Positions 12,537 through 63,749 of a DNA stretch of 64,000 nt are shown one piece after another (the first letter of the stretch is position 1; every line of letters starts with the position of its first letter). A model generated the notes under the pieces. The model made no database searches. It worked only from the letters and a program-made list of their open reading frames with translations, and was not told where the DNA came from. This stretch comes from Alphaproteobacteria bacterium (lineage in GTDB: Bacteria > Pseudomonadota > Alphaproteobacteria > Rhodobacterales > Rhodobacteraceae), in the NCBI GenBank assembly GCA_030425185.1, contig JAUIAU010000005.1:1-64000 (forward strand), given 5' to 3'. The position numbers and the translations under genes are program-made.

Positions 12537-13289
12537 ATGTCCATGCACTCCACGCAAACGACCGTCGATCCGGGCGAAATCGCGAAGTTCGAGGCGATGG
12601 CCGCCGAATGGTGGGACCCGAACGGCAAGTTCAAACCGCTGCACATGCTGAACCCCTGCCGGCTCGACTACATCACGCAGCAGATCGCCGCGGAGTTCGG
12701 GCGCGACCTGAAGGCCCCGCAGCCCTTCGCCGGTTTGCGCCTGCTCGACATCGGGTGCGGCGGCGGCCTGCTCTGCGAGCCCATGGCGCGTCTGGGGGCC
12801 ACCGTGGTCGGGGCCGATGCCGCCGAGCGCAACATTCCCGTCGCCCGCCTCCACGCCGAGCAGTCGGGCCTCGAGATCGACTACCGCCACACCACCGCCG
12901 AGGCGATGGCCGCCGATGGCGAGCAGTTCGACGTGGTGCTGAACATGGAGGTGGTCGAGCACGTCGCCGACCCGCTCGCCTATCTCACCGCCTGCCGGGA
13001 ACTGCTCAAGCCGGGCGGCCTGATGGTCTGCTCGACCCTCAACCGCAATCCCAAGAGCTACATGATGGCGATCATCGGGGCGGAGCATGTCATGCGCTGG
13101 CTGCCGAAGGGCACGCATGACTGGTCGAAGTTCATCACCCCGGACGAGCTGTTCGCCCTGATCACCGAGGCCGGGCTGAAACCGGTCGACCGCAAGGGCT
13201 TCAAGTTCAACCCGGTGCTGTGGACCTGGTCGATCTCGGACCGTGACCTGTCGGTCAACTACGTCACCGCCAGCGTGAAGCCCCGGTAA
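12537..13289 (+). CDS. ubiG: ubiquinone biosynthesis O-methyltransferase UbiG
   Basis: UbiG carries out both O-methylations of ubiquinone synthesis. The 250-residue protein has the typical start region with [20 protein letters not shown], motif [15 protein letters not shown] (near 64-77), [11 protein letters not shown], and the later LNRNPKSY and HDWSKF motifs of the family. Quinone is the electron acceptor of the reaction centre, but ubiG also serves respiration. A hairpin terminator lies 5 bases after the stop. Confidence 0.96.
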
Positions 13290-13349: not shown

Positions 13350-13775
13350 TTACATCTCGCCGCCGAACTGGGCGAGATACGCCGCGACATCCTCACCGCC
13401 ACGCGGCAGCTTGAAGGTCATGTTCGACCGTGCCGAGCTGTCGCCCGAATGGTCGCGCAGGTAGGCGGTCGGGTCGGCCACGTAGGTTGCGAGCTCTTCC
13501 TCGGTCCACACGAGGCCAGCCTCGCCCGATGCAACCATCGCATCGCTGTAGCCGCTGAAGCCCTCGGCGGTCCCGGCCTGACGGCCGATGACACCGTACA
13601 GGTTCGGACCGGTGTTGACGGCCGCGCGGCCGGCAATCACTTCGCCTGCCGGGTCCACGATGTGGTGGCAGGCGATACACTTGCGGAATTCGCGCTCGCC
13701 CTTGGCAGCGTCGCCCTCTGCAAGAGCCGGGGTCGCGACAACTGCGGCGGCCAGAATTGCGTAAGTCAGTTTCAT
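13350..13775 (-). CDS. cycA: cytochrome c2
   Basis: Soluble periplasmic cytochrome c2 carries electrons from the bc1 complex to the reaction centre or oxidase. The 141-residue precursor starts at the ATG at 13775, giving a signal peptide (about 1-19, MKLTYAILAAAVVATPALA). It is followed by the heme site CIACHH (33-38), the NTGPNLYGVIGR segment and the methionine ligand in SNMTFKLP, the order seen in Rhodobacter cytochrome c2. It is the last gene of the long minus-strand photosynthetic block, 79 bases after hemA. That gap includes TTGACG/TTGACT elements that could give cycA its own promoter. Confidence 0.9.
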   Translation of the reverse strand: MKLTYAILAAAVVATPALAEGDAAKGEREFRKCIACHHIVDPAGEVIAGRAAVNTGPNLYGVIGRQAGTAEGFSGYSDAMVASGEAGLVWTEEELATYVADPTAYLRDHSGDSSARSNMTFKLPRGGEDVAAYLAQFGGEM

Positions 13776-13854
13776 GGATTCCACTCCTCCGGATTTACTC
13801 CGTTGCGCTATGTAATCCGTCAGTCTGACAGTCAAACGTCAAGGCCAAACAACC

Positions 13855-52324: not shown

Positions 52325-53335
52325 TCAGGCGCCGTGCATCTCGCGGTCTTTCGCTTCCAGTTGCGCGAACAGGGCGACGACGCTGTCACTCCAGCTTTCG
52401 CGCGGCCTGCGGTCGGCAGCGGCATCGACGAGGAACGCGGTTTCCGGCAGCGGCCGCGCATGCAGGACGGCGCTGGTCGGCGTCAGCATCCCGGTCGCGG
52501 TGCGAACTCCGGCCTGCACCGCCCCTGCCAGCTTGTCCCGGCGGGTCGTGTGGGCCCGGTAGCCGATGTTGTCATAGCGCTTCGCCACCAGGTCCGCCCC
52601 GATCCCGGCATAGATCAGCCGCGCGGCCCAGATCGCGGGCCGGGCGCGGCGCGGCAGGGCATCGATCCCGGCCTCGGACCGGGTGTACAGGCGGTCGGCC
52701 TCGGCCAAGAGCGCGCGCGTGATCCGGGTCAGCGCCTCGGACCGGCGCGGCGCTGTCAGGAAGGCCTCCGGGTCGAGTCCCTCGGCGCGCATCCGGTCCA
52801 TCGGCAAGTAGAGCCGCCCTTCCCGCGCATCCTCGCCCACGTCGCGGGCGATGTTCGTCAACTGCATCGCCACGCCCAGGTCGCAGGCGCGCGCCAGTGC
52901 ATCGGCGTCGCGCACGCCCATCAGCACCGCCATCATCGCCCCGACGGTCGACGCGACGCGGGCCGAGTAGGCGCGCACCTCGGACAGGGTCTCGTAGCGG
53001 CGTCCCATCGCGTCCCAGGCGAAGCCCTCCAGCAGGGCCTCGGGCAGGGCACGCGGCATCCGGTGCGTTTCGACCATGTGGGCGAAGGCGCGGTCGGCGG
53101 GCTGGTTCAGCGGACGCCCCTGGTAGGCGAGGTCGAGACGGTCCCGGAGCGACAGCACCGCCGCCGCCTTTTCCTCGTTCAGGTCGACGGCGTCGTCGGC
53201 GCAGCGGCAGAAGGCATAGAGCGCCAGTGCCGGATCCCGCACCCGGCGCGGCAGTAGGCGCGAGGCGGCATGGAACGACAACGACCCGTGCCGGATCGCC
53301 TCGCGGCAATGATCGAGGTCGGCTTCGTGCGTCAT
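52325..53335 (-). CDS. crtB: phytoene synthase
   Basis: CrtB condenses two GGPP to phytoene. The 336-residue protein starts at ATG 53335 (4-base overlap with crtI). It has YAFCRCADDAVD (first Asp motif), QLTNIARDVGEDAREGRLYLP (in part; second motif) and AARLIYAGIG. Length is typical. It is transcribed with crtI from the crtI PpsR-controlled promoter. Confidence 0.96.
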   Translation of the reverse strand: MTHEADLDHCREAIRHGSLSFHAASRLLPRRVRDPALALYAFCRCADDAVDLNEEKAAAVLSLRDRLDLAYQGRPLNQPADRAFAHMVETHRMPRALPEALLEGFAWDAMGRRYETLSEVRAYSARVASTVGAMMAVLMGVRDADALARACDLGVAMQLTNIARDVGEDAREGRLYLPMDRMRAEGLDPEAFLTAPRRSEALTRITRALLAEADRLYTRSEAGIDALPRRARPAIWAARLIYAGIGADLVAKRYDNIGYRAHTTRRDKLAGAVQAGVRTATGMLTPTSAVLHARPLPETAFLVDAAADRRPRESWSDSVVALFAQLEAKDREMHGA

Positions 53336-54906
53336 TCGGCAGCCATCGGCAGCGGCATCCCTTCGGTGACGGTCGCGGCATCCGGGACCAGCTTCGACAG
53401 GACCTCGGCCGACGACACCACGCCGGGCACGCCCGCGCCCGGATGCGTCCCGGCCCCCACGAGGTAGAGCCCGCGCGCCTCTTCCGAGATGTTGTGCGGC
53501 CGGAACCATGCCGATTGCAGGATGCGCGGCTCAAGCGAGAAGCCCGCCCCGAGCGGCGACAGGTAGCGGTCGCGGAAGGTTTCCGGCGTGAACACGACCT
53601 CGGTCGTCAGGTGATCGCGGAACCCGGGGATCAGCTTCTCCAGCACCGCGGCAACCTTCGCCTTGTAGCGCTCGGCCTCCTGCGCCCAGTCGGTGCCGCC
53701 CGCAAAGCCGAGATGCGGCACGGGCGAGAGGGCATAGAAGGTGTCGCCGTCTTCGGGCGCGACGCCGGGATCGGTCACCGAGGGCCGGTGAACGTAGAGG
53801 CTCATGTCGTCGGAGAGTCGCCCGTTGTGGAAGATGTCGCGCAACAGCCCCTCGTAGCGCGGTCCGCTGACGATGGTGTGGTGCCCGACATCGGCCCATT
53901 TGCCCTTGGTGCCCCGGGTCCCGAAGTACCACACGAAGAGGCCCATGGACCATTTCGCGCGCTTCAGTTTGGCGTCGGACCAGCGCTTGCGGGGCGCCTT
54001 GCGCAGAAGGCGGCTGTAAGTGTGACCCGCGTCGGCATTCGACACGACGAGGGGCGCGCGCAGCACCTCACCGCCCGCCAGCCTGACGCCTTCGGCCGCG
54101 TTGTCGCGGATCAGGATTTCGTCGACGGTCTGGCCCAGTCGGATCATGCCGCCCTGCGCGCGCACGACTTTCGCCATCGCGTCGGCAATCGCCTGCACGC
54201 CGCCCATCGCGTAATGCACCCCGAATTCCTTCTCGAGATGGCTGACCAGCGCATACATCGACGTCACGTTGCGCGGGTCGCCCCCGATGAAGAGGGGGTG
54301 GAACGACAGCGCCATGCGCAGGTAGGGGTTCTTCACCCGCTTCTTCGCCAGCGTGAGGATGGACTGGTCGGCGCGCAGGACACCGAAGGTCGGCAGGACC
54401 TTCACGGTATCCCAGATCCGGTGCATCGGCTCGGCGACCATGCCCTCGAAGCCGACGAGGTAGCGCCGCTCGGCATCCTTCAGGAACTGCCGGTATCCCC
54501 GCACGTCCGCGGGTGACAGGCGGGCCACCTCGGCCTCCATCGCCTTGGTGGACTGGCGCGCGGTGAAGACCGTGCCGTCCGGCCAGCGGATCTCGTAGAA
54601 CGGGTCGAGCGGACGCAGGTCCACGTCCTGGTGGAAGTCGCGGCCGCAAGCCGCCCAGAGCTTCTCGTAGACCTGCGGCACCGTCACGATGGTCGGGCCG
54701 AGGTCAAAGCGGTGTCCGTCCTGCGTGATCGAGGAGCCCCGTCCGCCATGCCGGTCGAGCCGGTCGATGACGGTGACCGCGTAGCCCTTCGCCCCGAGGC
54801 GCATGGCCGAAGCGAGACCGCCCAGACCTGCGCCGATGACGATGGCCTCGGGTCGGCCGGGAGTGACGGGCGCGCCCGCGCGAATGGGATCGACTCGTGT
54901 CATCAT
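53332..54906 (-). CDS. crtI: phytoene desaturase
   Basis: CrtI desaturates phytoene to neurosporene or lycopene. The 524-residue protein starts at ATG 54906 (a second ATG follows at 54903). It has the FAD fold AIVIGAGLGGLASAMRLGAK, FDLGPTIVTVP, ALSFHPLFIGGDP and the C-terminal GLYLVGAGTHPGAGVPGV. A PpsR box lies 17 bases before the start. Unlike Rhodobacter, crtA is not divergent from it; glutaredoxin is. Confidence 0.96.
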   Translation of the reverse strand: MMTRVDPIRAGAPVTPGRPEAIVIGAGLGGLASAMRLGAKGYAVTVIDRLDRHGGRGSSITQDGHRFDLGPTIVTVPQVYEKLWAACGRDFHQDVDLRPLDPFYEIRWPDGTVFTARQSTKAMEAEVARLSPADVRGYRQFLKDAERRYLVGFEGMVAEPMHRIWDTVKVLPTFGVLRADQSILTLAKKRVKNPYLRMALSFHPLFIGGDPRNVTSMYALVSHLEKEFGVHYAMGGVQAIADAMAKVVRAQGGMIRLGQTVDEILIRDNAAEGVRLAGGEVLRAPLVVSNADAGHTYSRLLRKAPRKRWSDAKLKRAKWSMGLFVWYFGTRGTKGKWADVGHHTIVSGPRYEGLLRDIFHNGRLSDDMSLYVHRPSVTDPGVAPEDGDTFYALSPVPHLGFAGGTDWAQEAERYKAKVAAVLEKLIPGFRDHLTTEVVFTPETFRDRYLSPLGAGFSLEPRILQSAWFRPHNISEEARGLYLVGAGTHPGAGVPGVVSSAEVLSKLVPDAATVTEGMPLPMAAE

Positions 54907-54922
54907 GCTCTCACGGTAGGAC

Positions 54923-54940
54923 TGTCTAGTTTGATTTACA
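54923..54940. promoter_or_regulatory. PpsR box upstream of crtI
   Basis: The sequence tgtctagtttgatttaca is a perfect TGT-N12-ACA site. On the minus strand TTGGAC lies 18 bases upstream of AACTAG-like -10 sequence, so the box probably sits in the crtI promoter. Confidence 0.8.
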
Positions 54941-55070
54941 ATACGGCTGTCCAACCGGATCACTCTTTCCGGTCCGAACGCGCGGTTTTCGTCCTGTCGC
55001 GGCGCTGCGCCGGGGGTGACAGGCAGGCCCTCAGCGCCTAAATCCCCAAGGACTGACACGCGGAGGCACC

Positions 55071-55328
55071 ATGGCGACCGTCGAGATCTACACCACGCCC
55101 ACCTGCGGCTTCTGCATGATGGCCAAGCGCCTGCTCAGCCAGAAGGGTGTCGCCTTCTCGGAGACCGACGTCTCGCGCGATCCGGCCCTGCGGCAGGCGA
55201 TGATCCAGCGCGCCAACGGTGGCTACACGGTCCCGCAGATCTTCATCGACGGCACCCATGTCGGCGGCTGCGACGATCTCTATGCCCTCGAACGGGCGGG
55301 CAAGCTCGACCCGATGCTCGCCGCCTGA
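55071..55328 (+). CDS. grxC: glutaredoxin 3
   Basis: The 85-residue thiol-disulfide oxidoreductase has the active site TPTCGFCMMAKRLL (CxxC form), the cis-proline segment TVPQIFIDGTHVGG and CDDLYALERAGKL. It is preceded by an AGGCACC-type site. It overlaps the next gene (TGATG). In Rhodobacterales this gene usually follows comF, but here comF is 6 kb away in the opposite orientation. Confidence 0.95.
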   Translation: MATVEIYTTPTCGFCMMAKRLLSQKGVAFSETDVSRDPALRQAMIQRANGGYTVPQIFIDGTHVGGCDDLYALERAGKLDPMLAA

Positions 55329-56161
55329 TGCGCGCCGCGCTGATCCAGATGACCTCGTCCGACCAGCCGGACGAGAACCTCGCGCAGGCCACCGCGCTGA
55401 TCGAAGCTGCCGCCGCCGAGGGCGCCGGCTTCGTCCTGACCCCGGAAGTGACCAATTGCGTCTCCGGCAGCCGCGCGCACCAGCACGAGGTGCTGCGGAC
55501 CGAGGACGCGGACCCGGTGCTGGCCGGTCTGCGCGACCTCTCGGCCAAGCACGGGCTCTGGACGCTGATCGGCTCGCTCGCGCTGAAGACGGACGATCCC
55601 GACGGGCGCTTCGCCAACAGGTCCTTCCTCGTCGGGCCGGACGGCGGCATCGTGGCGCGCTACGACAAGATCCACATGTTCGACGTCCAGATCACCGAGA
55701 CCGAGACCTACCGCGAATCCGCCGGGTTCCGGCCGGGCGACCGCGCCGTTCTGGCCGAAACGCCCTTCGGCACGGTCGGCCTGACGGTCTGTTACGACGT
55801 GCGGTTCCCGCATCTCTACCGCGCGCTGGCGCAGGCCGGGGCCGAGATCCTGACCGTGCCCGCCGCCTTTTCCACCGCCACCGGGCCCGGGCACTGGCAG
55901 ACTCTGCTGCAGGCCCGCGCGATCGAGTGCGGCGCCTACGTCCTGGCGCCCGCGCAGACCGGCGTGCATCCGACGTCGACCGACAAGCGGCGCGCCACGC
56001 ACGGGCATTCGCTGGCCATCGACCCCTGGGGGACCGTGCTGGCCGACGGCGGCACCGCGCCCGGCGTGACTCTGGTCGAGATCGACCGCGCGACCGTCGC
56101 CGGGGTGCGGCAGAAACTGCCTTCCCTTTCGGGCGACCGTGCCTATGCTGCACCGTCATGA
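55328..56161 (+). CDS. nitrilase-superfamily amidohydrolase (Nit-like)
   Basis: The 277-residue protein starts at ATG 55328. The catalytic triad is visible: Glu in VLTPEVTNC, Lys in RYDKIHMFDV and Cys in LTVCYDVRFPHLYR. This matches the Nit1/Nit2-like branch, whose members repair deaminated glutathione. That substrate would fit its coupling to glutaredoxin but is inferred. The next gene overlaps it by 4 bases. Confidence 0.92.
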   Translation: MRAALIQMTSSDQPDENLAQATALIEAAAAEGAGFVLTPEVTNCVSGSRAHQHEVLRTEDADPVLAGLRDLSAKHGLWTLIGSLALKTDDPDGRFANRSFLVGPDGGIVARYDKIHMFDVQITETETYRESAGFRPGDRAVLAETPFGTVGLTVCYDVRFPHLYRALAQAGAEILTVPAAFSTATGPGHWQTLLQARAIECGAYVLAPAQTGVHPTSTDKRRATHGHSLAIDPWGTVLADGGTAPGVTLVEIDRATVAGVRQKLPSLSGDRAYAAPS

Positions 56162-56607
56162 ACGACGGGCCCGTGGCTGACCCTCTCGCGGTCGCGCTCT
56201 TCAGCGAACTTCTGACCGCCGAGCAGCTTGCACGCAACCGCCTCTCCAAGGCGTTGCCCAAAGGCATGGAAATCAGCCATTTCGCCGTGCTGAACCATCT
56301 CGCCAACCTCGGGGACGAGCGCACGCCCGCGCAACTGGCGCGCACGTTTCACGTCACCAAAGGCGCGATGACCAATACGCTGGGCAAGCTCGAGTGGGCC
56401 GGCCATGTCCACATCCGGCCCGACTGGGACGACGCGCGCCGCAAGATGGTGGCGATCAGCCCCTCGGGGCGCCGGGCCCGAGATGCGGCAATCCAGTCGA
56501 TGACCCCTATGCTGGCGGACGTGGTGCGCGATGTCGGCCCCGAGAAGGTCCGCGCCGCCCTGCCCGTCCTACACGAGCTGCGTCGACGGCTGGGCGAAGA
56601 GACCTAG
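56158..56607 (+). CDS. MarR-family transcriptional regulator
   Basis: The 149-residue protein has a winged helix-turn-helix with MEISHFAVLNHLANLGDERT, PAQLARTFHVTKGAMTNTLGKLE and the wing RPDWDDARRKMVAISPSG. The ligand and target are unknown. Its 3' end overlaps the convergent bchO 3' end by 39 bases, so the two mRNAs are antisense there. Confidence 0.92.
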   Translation: MNDGPVADPLAVALFSELLTAEQLARNRLSKALPKGMEISHFAVLNHLANLGDERTPAQLARTFHVTKGAMTNTLGKLEWAGHVHIRPDWDDARRKMVAISPSGRRARDAAIQSMTPMLADVVRDVGPEKVRAALPVLHELRRRLGEET

Positions 56608-57459
56608 CTCCGCCAGCCACGGCTCGATCTCGGCCAGGACCGCGTCCGGGTCTTCCTCGTGCATCAGGTGGCCCAGCGCGGGCAGGTCGCGGTGCGTGGC
56701 CTGCGGCAGCCGGGTCGCGGCGCGGGCACTCGTGTCGGGGGCGACCGCCTTGTCGCGCGCGCCGGTCAGCGACAGCACCGGCACCCGGATCTGCGGCAGC
56801 CGCGCGATCAGCGGGCGCAGGTCCCAGACCGACATCATGGTCAGCGCCCCGTCCACGTGCGCCCGGTCCCGCACTAGCCGGAAATAGGGCCGCAACTGCG
56901 CCGGGCTCAGGCGGCTGCCGGTCGCGGCGATCATCTGGCCCACGTTGCGCGGCGTCGCGGTGCGGGCAAAGAAGAGCGCGGTGAAGGGATTGACCGCCAG
57001 CACCTTGGCGAGGAACGGGAACAGCCACCCGGCGACGCCCTGGAACTCGGCCAGCGCCCCGTTCAGCGTGACGATCCCCTTCAGCGGAAGCCGGTCCGCC
57101 AGCTCCAGCGCGACAGCCCCCCCGGCGGAATGCCCGATCACCGCCACCGGGGACAGGCGCTCGGCCGCCATCAGCGCGGCGATGTCCTCGGCCACCTGCG
57201 GAAGCCGGGCCCGAGACAGCCCCGCGCGCCGGGTAAACCCGTGACCGGGCAGGTCGAGGGCCATGACCCGCCAGCGCCGCGCCAGCCTGGGCATTAGGTC
57301 CGCAAAGGAATGAGACGACGCGCCGGCCCCGTGCAGCAGCAACAGAAGCGGGGCCTGCTTCGGCCCCATCTCCTGCAGATGCCAGGTCGTGCCGTTGACC
57401 GTCCGGAACCGGCTGACCCCGGCCAGCGGCCAGTCGGCCTTTTCCGCCTCCCAGTTCAC
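56569..57459 (-). CDS. bchO: BchO, alpha/beta hydrolase of the bchIDO operon
   Basis: The 296-residue protein has LLLLHGAGASSHSFADLMP, the nucleophile elbow VIGHSAGGAVALELAD, an acid residue in TGARDKAVAP and a late histidine in ALGHLMHEEDPD. It matches BchO, encoded with magnesium chelatase subunits and of uncertain function. It overlaps bchD by 4 bases. Confidence 0.94.
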   Translation of the reverse strand: MNWEAEKADWPLAGVSRFRTVNGTTWHLQEMGPKQAPLLLLLHGAGASSHSFADLMPRLARRWRVMALDLPGHGFTRRAGLSRARLPQVAEDIAALMAAERLSPVAVIGHSAGGAVALELADRLPLKGIVTLNGALAEFQGVAGWLFPFLAKVLAVNPFTALFFARTATPRNVGQMIAATGSRLSPAQLRPYFRLVRDRAHVDGALTMMSVWDLRPLIARLPQIRVPVLSLTGARDKAVAPDTSARAATRLPQATHRDLPALGHLMHEEDPDAVLAEIEPWLAELGLFAQPSTQLV

Positions 57460-59198
57460 GGCACCAGGGCCCCGGCGACGGCAGCGGACAGCCGCCCGGC
57501 ATCGGCGCGGGGCAGCGGCAGGTAGGTCGCGTTCATCTCGCCCGCAAGGTCGCGCAACTGCGGCTGCGGGCGCGGGCTCATGTCGATCACCAGCGCGGGC
57601 GTGGCGGTGGCCCGCACCGCCAGCGCCATGCGCCTGGCATCCTCGGCGGCGGCAGGCCGGTCGGCACGGCCGTCGAGCGCGATGTTCGCCCGCCCGTCCG
57701 TCAGCAGCGCGATCGAGGGCGTCAGCCCCCGCCCGCGCGACAGGTCCGCGAGGTCAAGCGCGCTGCGCAACCCGGCGGCCAGCGGTGTCCCGCCACCCCC
57801 CGGCAACCCGGCCAGCCGCCGCTTCGTCTGCACGAGCGAGCGGGTGGGCGGCAACAGCACCTCGGCATGATCCCCCCGGAACGCCACCAGGGCGACATGG
57901 TCGCGCCGGGCATAGGCTTCGCCCAGCAGCAGCTCGACCGCGCCCTTCGCCTCGGCCAGCCGGGTGAAGGCGGCCGACCCGCTGGCATCGACCGCAAAGA
58001 TCAGCAGGCGGTCGGACTTCTCCTCGAACCGGCGCAGGCGGATGTCCTCGGCCCGGATCAGCACCTTCTGCGGGGCATCCGGCGTCAGGCGGCGGCGGAT
58101 CACCTGCCAGGGCGCCGCGGCCCGCAGGGTGGCCACGAGGTCGATACGACTCTGCCCGTCCAGCCGCCCGGGGCGCGACGGCAGCGGACGTCCGCGCCGG
58201 TTGCCTTTCTTCGCTGCCCCCGTCCCGGCACTTGCGCCGGTCACGCGCGGGGCCTTCCCGGCCGCCAGCTTCGCCAGCAGATCGGCGGGCAGGATCGCGC
58301 GGGCTGCCTCCAGCAGCACCTCTTCCGGCAGCATGTCGGGGACGTCGTCCTCGTCCACATCGGACTCGGGGGTGTCGTCGCCGGTCTTAGGCTCGGGCGG
58401 CGGCGGCTCTTCGGCCTCCGGCTCGGGCGTCTCCTCCGGCTCGGCGGGGAGCATCGTGGCGCGCGGGGCCAGCACCAGTTCGACCGCGCAGATCAGGTCG
58501 TCCTCGGTCACCACCGGCTCGCCGTCCAGCGCGGCACTCGCCCGCCCGGCGGCCAGCGCCAGCAGGGGCGCCCGCAGCGAGGCGATGCCCAGCCGGTGCG
58601 CCACCCGCACGACCGTCTCGACCGCATCGGCAGGCAGGCGCACCGCGGGCAGCCGCGCCCGGGCCGCGGCAATCAGGTCCGGATCGATTTCCAGGTCCGG
58701 GCAATCCGCCAGCGCCAGTCCTGACAGGTCGACATGCAGCGCCAGCCGGTCCGCAACGGTCTGCGGCAGGCGCTCGTCCGCCTCCGCCCCTTCGTCGAGC
58801 GCGACCACGCAATGCCCCTGCCCCGCATCCAGCACCTGCGCGAGGCGCGCCGCGAGGCCCCCGGTCAGCCGCTCGGCCATCGGCACCACCAGCGCGCGGG
58901 GACCGTTGCCCAGCACGCCGCGCGACCGCACGACGGTCCCGGCAGCCAGCGTGGCGGCCAGGTCGACGCCGCCGAACAATTGCTCGTCCGTCAGGGTCAG
59001 CGGAAGGCGGGCGGCGGGCATCGGGGCCAGAAGCCCCGGCAGTACCGCCATCAGCCGCTCGCGCGCGGGGCCGACCCGGGCTTTCAGCCAGAGCCCGCCG
59101 AGCCCGCCGGGATCGACCGCCAGCAGCGCCACGGCGGTCGCGGCGCGACCCCAGACCTCGACCGGGTCACGTTCGGGGGGAGGGGCGGGCGCCAGCAT
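57456..59198 (-). CDS. bchD: magnesium chelatase subunit D
   Basis: BchD is the platform subunit that links BchI to BchH. The 580-residue protein starts at ATG 59198 (MLAPAPPPERDPVEVWG). It has a degenerate AAA+ domain (about 1-270), an acidic/proline-rich linker (about 285-330) and a VWA domain with the metal site FAVDASGSAAFTRLAEAKGA and LTDGRANIALDG. It starts 4 bases after bchI. Length is typical. Confidence 0.95.
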   Translation of the reverse strand: MLAPAPPPERDPVEVWGRAATAVALLAVDPGGLGGLWLKARVGPARERLMAVLPGLLAPMPAARLPLTLTDEQLFGGVDLAATLAAGTVVRSRGVLGNGPRALVVPMAERLTGGLAARLAQVLDAGQGHCVVALDEGAEADERLPQTVADRLALHVDLSGLALADCPDLEIDPDLIAAARARLPAVRLPADAVETVVRVAHRLGIASLRAPLLALAAGRASAALDGEPVVTEDDLICAVELVLAPRATMLPAEPEETPEPEAEEPPPPEPKTGDDTPESDVDEDDVPDMLPEEVLLEAARAILPADLLAKLAAGKAPRVTGASAGTGAAKKGNRRGRPLPSRPGRLDGQSRIDLVATLRAAAPWQVIRRRLTPDAPQKVLIRAEDIRLRRFEEKSDRLLIFAVDASGSAAFTRLAEAKGAVELLLGEAYARRDHVALVAFRGDHAEVLLPPTRSLVQTKRRLAGLPGGGGTPLAAGLRSALDLADLSRGRGLTPSIALLTDGRANIALDGRADRPAAAEDARRMALAVRATATPALVIDMSPRPQPQLRDLAGEMNATYLPLPRADAGRLSAAVAGALVP

Positions 59199-59202
59199 GG
59201 GA

Positions 59203-60207
59203 TCAGGCCAGAACCTCGGCCACGGCGCGCTCGACACGGGTGCCCGACCCGGCCTCGTCCAGCGGATCGCGGCGCAGCCGGTGGCGCAGGGCGGAAGGCG
59301 CGATGGCACGCAGATGCTCGCGCGTGACCTCGTTCGCCCCGGCGAAGGCCGCGTAGGCCCGCGCCGCGCGCAAGAGCGTCAGTTCCCCGCGCAGGCCGTC
59401 GGCGCCAAGCGCGACGCAGAGCCGCGCGCAGTCGCGCAACGCGTCGTCCGAGGCTTTCACCTCGCGCAGCAGCGCCCGGGCCGCGAGGATGCGGGTCCGC
59501 AACGCGGCGTCCTCGCCGGTCCAGTGCGCCATGAACCCGTCATGGTCGGTCTCGTAGGCGTCGCGGCGGCGAATGACCTCGATCCGCTGGTCGATGTCCT
59601 TCGGGCTGGCGACCTCGACCGACAGGCCGAACCGGTCCAGAAGCTGCGGGCGCAACTCGCCCTCCTCCGGGTTGCCCGAGCCGACCAGCACGAACCGCGC
59701 CTTGTGGCGGATCGACAGGCCCTCGCGCTCGATCACGTTCTCACCGGAAACCGCCACGTCGAGCAGCAAGTCGACGATGTGGTCTTCCAGCAGGTTGACC
59801 TCGTCGATGTAGAGATACCCCCGGTTGGCGCGCGCCAGCAGGCCCGGCTCGAACGCCTTTTCGCCGCGTGTCAGCGCCCGCTCGATGTCAAGCGCGCCGA
59901 CCACCCGGTCCTCGGTCGCGCCCAGCGGCAGGTCGACCACCGGCGTCGGCTTCTCGACCAGCGTCTCGTCGCGGATCTCGGCCCAGTCCGGACAGTCCGC
60001 CCGGCTGGCCGAGTTGCAGGGGCACCCGGCGACCGCCGTGATCGGCGGCAGCAGCGCGGCAAGGGCCCGCACGCTGGTCGACTTGCCCGTGCCCCGGTCC
60101 CCGAACACCAGCACCCCGCCGATGCCCGGATCGATCGCGGTCAGGATCATCGCGCGCTTCATTTCGTCCTGGCCGACGATGGCGGAGAACGGGAAAGGAT
60201 GGGTCAT
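59203..60207 (-). CDS. bchI: magnesium chelatase subunit I (AAA+ ATPase)
   Basis: BchI is the motor ATPase of magnesium insertion. The 334-residue protein has the Walker [17 protein letters not shown] (35-50), a Walker B region in [17 protein letters not shown], the [18 protein letters not shown] sensor segment and a C-terminal helical bundle. It overlaps crtA by 4 bases. Confidence 0.97.
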
Positions 60208-60935
60208 GCTGTTGTGTCCTTCGTCAGGCGCGCCAGGGGGCTGACGCCGTTCCAGCTTCCGGCGTCGCCGAGGACGCGGAAGCGGGCATAAAGTTCTTCA
60301 CGGAACCAGTTTCCGTCCCGCACCGCGCGGATCGCCCGCGCATGCGGCCCGTCCGGGCGGCGGGCAAAATCGGCCATGCTGGCGGTGTCGGGCCAGATCG
60401 AGAAGGTGACCTGCTGCAGCAGCGGCACCTCGCCGATCCCGATCTTGAAGACCACGTTCGGGTCCGCGCCGATCACGTCCTCGATCCGCGGCACGCGCCG
60501 CCAGAACCGGGTTGCGACGGCGGGCTTGACCGTGGCCCGCGTCAACGCCGCCAGCGGGCCGGGGGTTTCGTCCTCTCCGGCGGCGAAAGGCGTCGCGCCG
60601 GACCAGTGCCCGCGCACGGAGGTGGGCGTCAGGAAGACGGTCCAGCTTTCCTCGGCATGGCGCGCCCAGCGCCGGAAAGTTGCGCCGCTCGCGGTCTGCG
60701 CCTGCGCGGTCCCAAGATCGTCCCAGGTCGCGAGGATCGCATAAACGGCTGTATTGGGGATGGGTGTGAACCCCTCGCCGGTGCCGGACCCGCAGAGCTT
60801 CCAGAACCCGATACCGGGGGTGCGCGGCAGGGTCAGACGGGCGGCACCCATCTGCGCCAGCACCCAGAGGCGCTGTCGCAGGGGCCCGAACCGGTAGAAA
60901 GAGAGGCTGACGGTCTGAATCGGACCCACTCCCAC
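60204..60935 (-). CDS. crtA: spheroidene monooxygenase
   Basis: CrtA adds the C-2 keto group, turning spheroidene into spheroidenone under oxygen. The 243-residue protein starts at GTG 60935 (another GTG lies at 60929; no ATG is available before a stop). It has [51 protein letters not shown] and [12 protein letters not shown], all family landmarks. No clear ribosome site precedes it. It heads crtA-bchI-bchD-bchO, but is not next to crtI as in Rhodobacter. Confidence 0.93.
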
Positions 60936-60952
60936 GGATTCGTCACATGATG

Positions 60953-60970
60953 TGTCAACTTAGTCTGACA
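60953..60970. promoter_or_regulatory. PpsR box upstream of crtA
   Basis: The sequence tgtcaacttagtctgaca is a perfect TGT-N12-ACA site 18 bases before the crtA GTG, in the 56-base gap after comF. Confidence 0.85.
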
Positions 60971-60991
60971 GTTTTGTTGTCAGATGGAAAG

Positions 60992-61768
60992 TCAAATCGC
61001 GTCGGCGATCCGGGGCGCCGGGTTGCGATGTCCCGTCGCCTCCGGCTCGTCCTTGGTGACACGGGCGCAGACCAGGACATCGACGCCCGCCGCCCCCGCC
61101 GCCAGGCAGGCCTCGGTCGCGGCGGCCAGCGTCGCGCCGGTGGTCATCACGTCATCGACCAGCAGGATGTCCCGGCCCCGCAGGACCGCGAGCCGGTCGG
61201 GCGCGGGGGCGATCACCCCGTCAAGCAGCGCGAACCGCTCGTCCCGCCCGCGATGATCGAGCGCCGGCGTCGCCCGCAGGCGGCGCAGCGCATCGACCGC
61301 CACCGTCCCCGGCCCACCCATCGCGCGCGCCAGCAGCGCCGCCTGGTTGTACCGCCGCCGGAACAGCCGTCGCGGATGCAGCGGCACCGGCACCATCAGC
61401 GTGTCGGGCGCCAGCAGCGGTCCCGCCGCGCGCCGCAGCCACGGACCCAGCGTCCGGGCCAGGTCCGTCCGGTCGGCATGTTTCAGAAGCAGCATGATCC
61501 GCCTTCCGCTGGCGGCATAACGGAACACCGCCCGCCCGCGCCGCCATGGCCGTGCCAGCACGAGGCAGTCGTCGCAGGTCAGGGGCCCGTCCCCGACCGC
61601 ACCGTCCGGCATCAGGACCGGGGCCGCGCAGGTCGCACAAAGCGGCCCGGTCAGCATCGGCGTGTCGCGCAGGCAGTCCGGGCACAGGTGAAAGGCAACG
61701 CCCGTCTCGGCCCGGCATAGCGGGCACTCGGGCGGAAACAGCCTGTCAACGATGGTTCCCAAGGGCAT
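60992..61768 (-). CDS. comF: ComF-family phosphoribosyltransferase-like protein
   Basis: The 258-residue protein has an N-terminal double zinc ribbon (PPECPLCRAETG, LCPDCLRD, CATCAAP, CDDCL) and a phosphoribosyltransferase fold with RRYNQAALLARA and the PRPP motif ILLVDDVMTTGATLAA. ComF acts in DNA uptake in competent species; in most bacteria its role is unclear. It reads toward crtA, 56 bases away, and is divergent from the methyltransferase (23-base gap). Confidence 0.93.
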   Translation of the reverse strand: MPLGTIVDRLFPPECPLCRAETGVAFHLCPDCLRDTPMLTGPLCATCAAPVLMPDGAVGDGPLTCDDCLVLARPWRRGRAVFRYAASGRRIMLLLKHADRTDLARTLGPWLRRAAGPLLAPDTLMVPVPLHPRRLFRRRYNQAALLARAMGGPGTVAVDALRRLRATPALDHRGRDERFALLDGVIAPAPDRLAVLRGRDILLVDDVMTTGATLAAATEACLAAGAAGVDVLVCARVTKDEPEATGHRNPAPRIADAI

Positions 61769-61791: not shown

Positions 61792-62658
61792 ATGACGACG
61801 CCCGCACCCCCTCGCCCCCGCCTGACCGACCGGGAGACGCTGCTGCGGCACCGCGCCCGCGGGCGCGTGCTGCGCGGGACCGAGCGGCCGTTCCTGCATG
61901 ACGAGGCCAGAGCCGAGCTGCAGGAGAGACTGCTCGAGGTTAACAGAACCTTTACCTCGCCCGCCGTCGTGACCGGACATCCGGAGCTGTGGTCGGACCT
62001 CGTGCCCGGGGCGACCGTGGTCCCGGATGACGAGGTGCTGGCCCTTCAGCCCGGGGCGCATGACCTGGTGATCCACGCGCTCTGCCTGCACTGGGCCGAC
62101 GACCCGGTGGGCCAGCTGATCCAGTCGCGCCGCGCGCTGCGTCCCAATGGGCTGTTCCTGGGCGTCTGTTTCGGCGGCGAGACCCTGACCGAACTGCGCT
62201 CCGCGCTCGCCGCGGCCGAAGCGCAGGTTCGCGGCGGCCTGTCGCCGCGCGTGCTGCCGTTGGGCGACCTGCGGGACCTCGGCGCGCTACTGCAACGCGC
62301 CGGTCTCGCCCTTCCGGTTGCCGATCAGTCGCGCCTGACGGTCCATTACGCGGAGTTTTCCCGCCTGGTTTCGGACCTGCGCGCGATGGGCGAGACGAAT
62401 GCCCTCGCCGCGCGTGATCCAAAGCCGGTTCCCCGCCGTATGCTCAAAGACGCGGTGGAACGCTACGCCGCACACCATCCGGGGCCGAACGGCACATTGC
62501 GCGCCACCTTCGACCTCGTCTACCTCACCGGCTGGTCGCCCTCCCCCGACCAGCCGAAATCGCTGCGTCCGGGCTCGGCCACGGTGCGGCTCGCCGACGC
62601 GCTCGGAACGGTGGAACGCGATCCCGCCGCGACCGACGACGAGGGCGGTGCCGCATGA
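61792..62658 (+). CDS. NDUFAF5/BioC-like methyltransferase-fold protein
   Basis: The 288-residue protein has a SAM-methyltransferase fold with HDLVIHALCLHWADDPVGQL and SRRALRPNGLFLGVCFGGETLTELR (in part). The glycine-rich motif I is degenerate (SPAVVTGHPEL), as is common in this branch related to NDUFAF5/C20orf7, a complex I assembly factor that hydroxylates an arginine. Function here is unproven. hemH starts within its stop (4-base overlap). Confidence 0.85.
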   Translation: MTTPAPPRPRLTDRETLLRHRARGRVLRGTERPFLHDEARAELQERLLEVNRTFTSPAVVTGHPELWSDLVPGATVVPDDEVLALQPGAHDLVIHALCLHWADDPVGQLIQSRRALRPNGLFLGVCFGGETLTELRSALAAAEAQVRGGLSPRVLPLGDLRDLGALLQRAGLALPVADQSRLTVHYAEFSRLVSDLRAMGETNALAARDPKPVPRRMLKDAVERYAAHHPGPNGTLRATFDLVYLTGWSPSPDQPKSLRPGSATVRLADALGTVERDPAATDDEGGAA

Positions 62659-63749
62659 CCACCCCGGCATCGAAAGGCAACGGCATGAACATGATGTCCG
62701 CGACCCCGCTGGCCCACGCTCCCGCGGATCACCCGAAAGTCCGGTTCGGCAAGGTCGGGGTCCTGCTGGCCAACCTCGGCACGCCGGACAACTACGACTA
62801 CTGGTCGATGCGCCGGTACCTGAACGAGTTCCTCTCGGACCGTCGTGTCATCGACTATTCGCCATGGCTCTGGCAGCCGCTGCTGCAGGCGATCATCCTG
62901 ACCAAGCGGCCGTTCTCGTCGGGCGAGGCCTACAAGTCGATCTGGAATCACGACAAGGGCGAAAGCCCGCTGATGACGATCACCAAGGAGCAGACCGCCA
63001 GGATCACCGAGCAGATGAAGGCCCGGTTCGGCGAGGACGTGGTGGTCGATTTCTGCATGCGGTACGGCAACCCCTCGACCAAGTCGAAGGTGGACGCGCT
63101 GGTGGCCCAGGGCTGCCAGAAGATCCTGTTCTTCCCGCTCTACCCGCAATACGCGGGCGCCACGAGCGGCACCGCCTGCGACCAGTTCTTCCGCTCGCTC
63201 ATGCAGATCAAGTGGCAGCCGATCGTCCGCACGGTCGAGCCCTACTACGAGCACCCGCTCTACATCGAGGCGCTGGCCCAGTCGGTCGAGCGCGCCTACG
63301 CCGATCTCGGCGAGCGCCCCGACGTGCTGGTGGCCAGCTATCACGGAGTCCCGAAACGGTACCTGATGGAAGGTGACCCCTACCATTGCCAGTGCCAGAA
63401 GACGACCCGCCTGCTGCGCGAACGGCTCGGCTGGCCGGAGACCGAGATCGTCACGACCTTCCAGTCCCGCTTCGGGCCGGAGGAGTGGCTGAAGCCCTAC
63501 ACCGTGGAAGAGGTCGCGCGCCTCGCCGAGGCCGGCAAGAAGAAGATCGCCGTGATCGCGCCGGCCTTCTCGGCCGACTGCATCGAGACGCTGGAAGAGA
63601 TCAACGAGGAAATCCGCGAGAGCTTCGAGCACGCCGGGGGCGAGCAGTTCACCTACATCCCCTGCCTGAACGCGGATGCGGCCCACATCGCCGCGCTGAG
63701 CGCCGTGATAGAGGAAAACCTCCAGGGCTGGATCGCGCCGCGCGCCTGA
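62655..63749 (+). CDS. hemH: ferrochelatase
   Basis: HemH inserts iron into protoporphyrin IX, the branch competing with magnesium chelatase. The 364-residue protein has GVLLANLGTPDNYDYWSMRRY, FFPLYPQYAGATSG, the catalytic histidine in LVASYHGVPKRYL and the acidic SADCIETLEEINEE segment. It starts 4 bases inside the methyltransferase gene and ends before a strong terminator. Confidence 0.96.
   Translation: MTTPASKGNGMNMMSATPLAHAPADHPKVRFGKVGVLLANLGTPDNYDYWSMRRYLNEFLSDRRVIDYSPWLWQPLLQAIILTKRPFSSGEAYKSIWNHDKGESPLMTITKEQTARITEQMKARFGEDVVVDFCMRYGNPSTKSKVDALVAQGCQKILFFPLYPQYAGATSGTACDQFFRSLMQIKWQPIVRTVEPYYEHPLYIEALAQSVERAYADLGERPDVLVASYHGVPKRYLMEGDPYHCQCQKTTRLLRERLGWPETEIVTTFQSRFGPEEWLKPYTVEEVARLAEAGKKKIAVIAPAFSADCIETLEEINEEIRESFEHAGGEQFTYIPCLNADAAHIAALSAVIEENLQGWIAPRA

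Follow-up and report, generated by a model that had tools for sequence, protein, structure and literature searches.

An apparently derived gene order that divides the crtI-crtA control region in the photosynthesis gene cluster of the Dinoroseobacter genus

We analysed a stretch of 64,000 nucleotides (hereafter the window; positions 1 to 64,000 of contig JAUIAU010000005.1, assembly GCA_030425185.1) from an alphaproteobacterium of the family Rhodobacteraceae that carries a photosynthesis gene cluster. Near one end of this cluster the genes follow the order crtI (minus) / grxC-nit-marR (plus) / bchO-bchD-bchI-crtA (minus) / comF (minus). Searches with Pfam and NCBIfam bore out these genes and strands, which an earlier note had read from the letters, and the two PpsR-type boxes that it had placed at 54923 and 60953 are present (54923-54940 and 60953-60970). 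As crtI and crtA are not adjacent, the window lacks the canonical divergent crtI-crtA unit. The features of this region are the following.

53332-54906, minus strand: crtI, phytoene desaturase family (TIGR02734)
54923-54940, no strand: predicted PpsR box of the crtI type, retained by crtI (+11.9 bits, crtI type against crtA type)
54941-55070, no strand: left junction, the apparent remainder of the old crtI-crtA gap fused to the old comF-grxC gap
55036-55047, plus strand: probable relic of the old comF stop context, GCCTAAATCCCC (TAA at 55039-55041), found with a 15-base weight matrix
55071-55328, plus strand: grxC, glutaredoxin 3 (TIGR02181)
55328-56161, plus strand: nit, CN hydrolase of the deaminated glutathione amidase kind (PF00795; NF043013 below its cut-off)
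56158-56607, plus strand: MarR-type regulator (general MarR match, PF12802), its 3' end overlapping bchO by 39 bases
56569-57459, minus strand: bchO (TIGR03056)
57456-59198, minus strand: bchD, Mg-chelatase subunit D (NF009943)
59203-60207, minus strand: bchI, Mg-chelatase subunit I (TIGR02030)
60204-60935, minus strand: crtA, spheroidene monooxygenase (NF045923)
60936-60991, no strand: right junction, the apparent remainder of the old crtI-crtA gap, behind comF
60953-60970, no strand: predicted PpsR box of the crtA type, retained by crtA (-10.8 bits, crtI type against crtA type)
60992-61768, minus strand: comF, C-terminal tail replaced after ARVTKD (comF model score below its curated cut-off)

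On nit, none of the models for deaminated glutathione amidase reaches its curated cut-off.

Comparison with relatives indicates that the order in the window is almost certainly the derived state. In a set of 80 named crtA loci, crtI stands divergently beside crtA in 76 and comF takes this place in two, both of the Dinoroseobacter genus, while two were scored as unresolved. A second set of 44 loci, which shares some genomes with the first (a 45th locus has no crtA), gave crtI as the neighbour in 38, comF in four (the genomes that we label G000 to G003) and hemA in two. Two sets of 79 and 80 genomes gave a comF match in 78 and 73 of their members, respectively, 134 of these being phototrophs (61 + 73), and comF lies less than 1 kb from crtA in G000 to G003 only, the next closest being G392 at 10.5 kb; this result is weakened by the comparison of coordinates by eye and by contig ends, which may hide cases. 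As for the other neighbourhood, comF and nit run in the same direction at a distance of about 1 kb in 64 of 79 genomes, among which are 14 of the 17 non-phototrophs, in agreement with the claim that comF-grxC-nit-marR is the order of non-phototrophic relatives. The 15 exceptions comprise G000 to G003, where cluster genes split the pair, G004, G005 and G020, where the two genes stand tail to tail, six genomes in which they are apart or only distantly matched (G016, G028, G317, G331, G374 and G397), G022 without nit and G292 without both. Among 29 nit loci, one from the same family and 28 from other families of the class, grxC lies at most 150 bases before nit in 27, with comF at most 400 bases before grxC in 19 of the latter. 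Of 18 relatives from outside the genus that were read in detail, 16 have the complete comF-grxC-nit-marR order, the exceptions being G392 (without nit) and G020 (flipped). In 13 of these 16, ubiG lies convergently behind marR; in the other three, G170, G091 and G132, the stretch examined showed no ubiG. Flipping the segment from crtA to grxC restores both crtI<- ->crtA-bchIDO and comF-grxC-nit-marR, each the common order in relatives, and the counts for crtI beside crtA and for grxC before nit uphold the proposal that both restored orders are ancestral.

The order hemH-methyltransferase-comF-crtA-bchI-bchD-bchO-marR-nit-grxC-crtI-crtB is found in the window, G001 and G003, and on two contigs in G002; the rearranged order is thus common to G000 to G003, which belong to the same genus as the window. 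We take G001 to be Dinoroseobacter shibae; its crtI and comF are 77% and 50% identical to those of the window. The gene order of G001 agrees with that published for D. shibae DFL 12, which runs hemH, methyltransferase, comF, crtA, bchI, bchD, bchO, MarR gene, hypothetical, grxC, crtI, crtB (PMC6052148, Table 1). The layout itself is therefore already known, and the D. shibae cluster (Dshi_3498-3547) follows the order of the window on to hemA-cycA. In its accessible text that paper gives the order as a list and contains no account of a divided promoter, of the comF tail or of an inversion, and this last word does not appear in it. Zheng et al. (2011; PMC3176799) noted that crtA and crtIBK lie apart from each other in D. 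shibae; the accessible part of their article mentions general crt re-arrangement and gives neither cause nor polarity for this separation, and the word inversion is likewise absent from its text. In the literature searched, including the accessible parts of these two papers, we found no inversion at the crtI/crtA locus in print. That the D. shibae order might itself be ancestral, and the other orders derived, is scarcely credible. A structure common to Rhodovulum sulfidophilum and a group from Roseibacterium to D. shibae has been called ancestral (PMC6052148), but that proposal, as far as its accessible text goes, does not single out the crtA-comF neighbourhood. Moreover, relatives as a rule show both old adjacencies, and comF-grxC-nit extends beyond the family; the comF tail and stop relic described below show the opposite direction. 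The published gene order can now be polarised, with the crtA-comF and crtI-grxC neighbourhoods as derived.

The two PpsR boxes point to where the old control region was divided. TGT-N12-ACA boxes are enriched in the window (19 against 4.2 expected, with a maximum of nine in 100 shuffles), and such palindromes adjoin the crt promoters, as expected of PpsR/CrtJ sites, so that we treat them as predicted sites; functional PpsR sites have been reported in the bchF promoter of D. shibae (PMC10890935). In the canonical crtI-crtA control region of Rhodobacteraceae each gene has its own PpsR box, and the two boxes are of the types seen in the window, where, however, the two halves lie 6 kb apart, each with a foreign neighbour. 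At least two boxes are present in 94 of 121 canonical gaps (92 of 118 distinct gaps), and in a choice of loci the box near crtI is often TGTCTAGTTTAGTTTACA and the box near crtA often TGTCAGACTAAGTTGACA. Of 88 canonical crtA-side boxes, 15 have exactly the sequence of the box at 60953, which no crtI-side box shares. The types assigned to the two boxes of the window match the crtI side and the crtA side, respectively, as predicted for the halves of one former shared region, and typing in G001 and G003 agrees. Two G004 duplicates, together with loci that did not offer at least two usable boxes, had been removed from the typing set beforehand; the classifier was correct in 148 of 176 leave-one-out cases, a rate flattered by related loci in the set, which tempers the assignment. 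The locus offers a natural experiment: a single repressor region once common to both genes has been severed, and each part has received a new partner.

A second scar is visible in comF. In 15 of 16 relatives that have kept the intact order, an ARVxK or ARVxR motif precedes the end of comF by two residues; the comF tail departs from this ending in all six members of the genus and in G020. A match to the old comF stop context, GCCTAAATCCCCAAG, lies at 55036-55050, 35 bases before grxC, as scored with a 15-base weight matrix built from 16 relatives (0.0013 matches of this quality expected in the gap). In G001 and G003 the best matches to this matrix lie 37 bases before grxC (0.0028 and 0.0099 expected). 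Because the box types have stayed with crtI and crtA, the comF tail has been replaced and the stop relic lies before grxC, we conclude from the sequence that the left cut probably fell in the spacer that separates the two PpsR boxes of the shared crtI-crtA promoter region, and the right cut among the final codons of comF, immediately upstream of grxC. The ends would have been joined in crossed fashion; this physical act is deduced from the observed order and scars. Keeping its own box, crtI would then have come to face the three housekeeping genes grxC-nit-marR, and crtA-bchI-bchD-bchO, also with its own box, would have come to start 56 bases behind comF on the same strand. Running into former promoter DNA, comF would have acquired its new tail.

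Several observations weigh against this reconstruction. The stop relic depends on the matrix: with 20 bases the expected numbers are 0.0013 in the window, 0.0009 in G001 and 0.22 in G003, and with 42 bases, a length that includes codons of comF expected to have been removed, they are 0.34, 0 and 0.93. The relic is weak or negative in G004 (0.022) and G005 (0.53), the background used for scoring included the window, and a -10-like element favoured by selection in front of grxC could look like such a relic. The short homologous inverted sequences that the earlier note had suggested looking for at the breakpoints (54941-55070 and 60936-60991) did not materialise, the best match scoring 7, a value reached in 170 of 300 shuffles and hence at chance level. 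Furthermore, we found no un-inverted or half-way genome among those surveyed, where contig ends may hide cases, and gene order alone cannot discriminate between the two histories considered next.

The photosynthesis cluster extends from ubiG (12537) by way of hemA and the puh, bch, puf and crt genes as far as crtI. Its bulk lies between ubiG and grxC, a point that the earlier note had passed over. The flanking features are:

12537-13289, plus strand: ubiG (NCBIfam TIGR01983), left neighbour of the photosynthesis cluster here, convergent with marR in most relatives read
13350-13835, minus strand: putative cycA (cytochrome c2) between ubiG and hemA, named by position only (cf. Dshi_3547 in PMC6052148, Table 1), with no Pfam match
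61792-62658, plus strand: methyltransferase (PF08241), old neighbour of comF according to the order in relatives
62655-63749, plus strand: hemH, named by position as in PMC6052148, Table 1, with homologues at the same place in relatives

Compared with the ancestral arrangement, the adjacencies ubiG/marR, grxC/comF, crtI/crtA and bchO/hemA have been lost (the last is present in Thalassobacter), and ubiG/cycA-hemA, crtI/grxC, marR/bchO and crtA/comF have been gained. Because these form two independent pairs, it can be reasoned that two equally short two-step histories lead to the order of the window. In the simplest path, the photosynthesis cluster would have entered between ubiG and marR, and an inversion of 6 kb would have followed. 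We think it probable, with some reserve, that this inversion was the last step. A single inversion of about 6 kb, as first proposed, does restore both ancestral neighbourhoods; it has an equally short two-step rival, and no intermediate for it has been found. In that rival, which we consider possible but distinctly less likely, the cluster travelled as a circle or moving segment, was opened in the crtI-crtA promoter and inserted at comF/grxC, and the stretch that reaches from marR to hemA, about 43 kb, was inverted afterwards. The same four adjacencies would be lost and gained, the independence of the pairs allowing the steps to run in either order, and plasmid-borne transfer and reintegration of the cluster have been proposed (PMC6052148, accessible text). 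This route needs a larger inversion, however, it too lacks an intermediate, and nothing in the sequence favours it over the 6-kb inversion. A circular intermediate would suit either history, since the cluster lies beside nusA in circularly permuted form in Thalassobacter (G265) and in G317. In these two genomes it adjoins rimP-nusA and begins tspO-crtB-crtI-crtA, with crtD-crtC at the far end in G317. Thalassobacter G265 is the sister of the genus in the cluster trees, and the PpsR proteins of G317 are nearest to those of the Dinoroseobacter genus.

Whichever inversion took place, a single origin of the rearrangement is most likely, in the common ancestor of Dinoroseobacter, a group of phototrophic marine bacteria. 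A housekeeping tree (eight proteins, 22 genomes) places six genomes, including that of the window, in one clade, ((G001,G003),(G004,G005,(window,G002))), with support of 100/100 for the genus and for each group, and leaves the branching order among G004, G005 and the window open. In a six-protein cluster tree, the four rearranged clusters form one clade (Shimodaira-Hasegawa-like approximate likelihood ratio test, SH-aLRT, 99) nested among canonical ones, beside Thalassobacter, and the arrangement changes once on this tree.

In G004 and G005 the flipped grxC-nit-marR block adjoins comF, and crtA-bchIDO is absent there. As marR and comF meet tail to tail, with no intervening crtA-bchIDO, in these two genomes and also in the distant G020, one may ask whether grxC-nit-marR was flipped first and the cluster entered later. 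This sequence of events is very unlikely. It requires more steps, G020 is far off in the tree and looks independent, and no non-phototrophic outgroup of the genus was seen with a flipped block and no cluster relics. G004 and G005 are nested beside the window in the genus (100/100) and have kept cluster genes between ubiG and grxC, for which reasons they look like secondary losses. In G004 (C25:115766-122945) the genes between ubiG and grxC are a cytochrome-like gene (CAACH motif), a B12-binding PpaA-like gene, ppsR and idi; in G005, a genome only 83% complete, they are a cytochrome-like gene and idi. The cytochrome-like (cycA-like) genes of both have no Pfam match and are named by motif and position. 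Two relatives thus look to have lost the cluster from the rearranged site. This may have been one shared loss or two: G004 and G005 group as sisters with 88/87, and joining the window with G004 is not rejected (p 0.21; with G005, p 0.011). The third genome, G020, the only one of its genus, shows an independent-looking flip of grxC-nit-marR relative to comF on contig C1, with the comF tail again changed; a partial cluster (hemA to at least bchB) lies about 14 kb from this flip, and crtA-crtI is canonical on another contig.

G004 also carries a second photosynthesis cluster, at C25 from 157215 to about 201600, some 35 kb beyond the relic site, with a different layout in which bchO adjoins idi. 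This cluster shares a clade with clusters of the Lutimaribacter and Roseovarius types (SH-aLRT 95), with lower support for the nearer grouping (87/89). An approximately unbiased (AU) test on 22 of 79 clusters rejects its placement with the genus (log-likelihood lower by 180; p 7e-52, which should not be read literally). The relic ppsR is sister to that of the window (100/96), with a longer end branch for its protein (0.49 against 0.18 for the window), and the ppsR of the second cluster falls elsewhere in the tree; a single clade is rejected (p 1.8e-5). G004 is colinear with G001 from ubiG to 156,946 (3,779,006 in G001), where the second cluster follows. Beyond it, the gene at 203,663 matches G001 at 3,779,992 and three more match G001 at 128 to 2,427, with no further G004 matches within the G001 stretch compared; the cluster ends about 4 kb before the gene matching base 128 of the G001 chromosome record. 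As G004 matches G001 on both sides of the second cluster, a chimeric contig is unlikely. We lean slightly towards a scenario in which G004 (Dinoroseobacter HXMU1420-12) lost its native cluster, kept relics and later gained a cluster of the Roseovarius/Lutimaribacter kind, on which the orphan native PpaA-PpsR may act. Loss before gain is likely, and both clusters may have coexisted for a time. We found no report of loss and regain of photosynthesis within one genus in the open literature, most subscription papers being outside the search. One lineage would thus show both loss in place and gain of a foreign cluster, and the relics in G004 and G005 bear on whether phototrophy in Rhodobacteraceae was mostly lost or mostly gained.

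The new neighbourhoods may also have regulatory consequences. Because crtA starts just 56 bases behind comF on the same strand, transcription could read through from comF into crtA-bchIDO. Without comF as operon leader, grxC would require a promoter in the new gap; a simple scan for consensus sigma-70 promoters and terminators found none in either junction. The PpsR box close to crtI lies about 130 bases before the start of grxC. Transposon insertion in ppsR (ppsR::Tn) is reported to raise all genes of the photosynthesis cluster in D. shibae (PMC10890935). The accessible text of this PpsR study does not mention grxC and, of the tags Dshi_3500, 3501, 3505, 3506 and 3507 (all in PMC6052148, in its gene table), holds only Dshi_3501; light or redox control of grxC, as the earlier note had suggested, therefore stays a guess. 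Neither glutaredoxin nor grxC occurs in the text of PMC4373377.

Some further observations concern spacing. The tail-to-tail overlap of marR and bchO in the window (56569-56607) measures 39 bases, and the edges of the corresponding tblastn matches lie 48 bases apart in G001 and 55 in G003. In G392 (C1:262001-300000) a canonical cluster has crtB about 5 kb from pip-ubiG-marR-grxC-comF, nit being missing between marR and grxC. Finally, the distance between crtA and comF is about 1 Mb or more in G203, G306, G132 and G079, and only 70-320 kb in the few-contig genomes G201, G327, G073, G151, G063, G397, G331 and G414, which hints at an old common neighbourhood.

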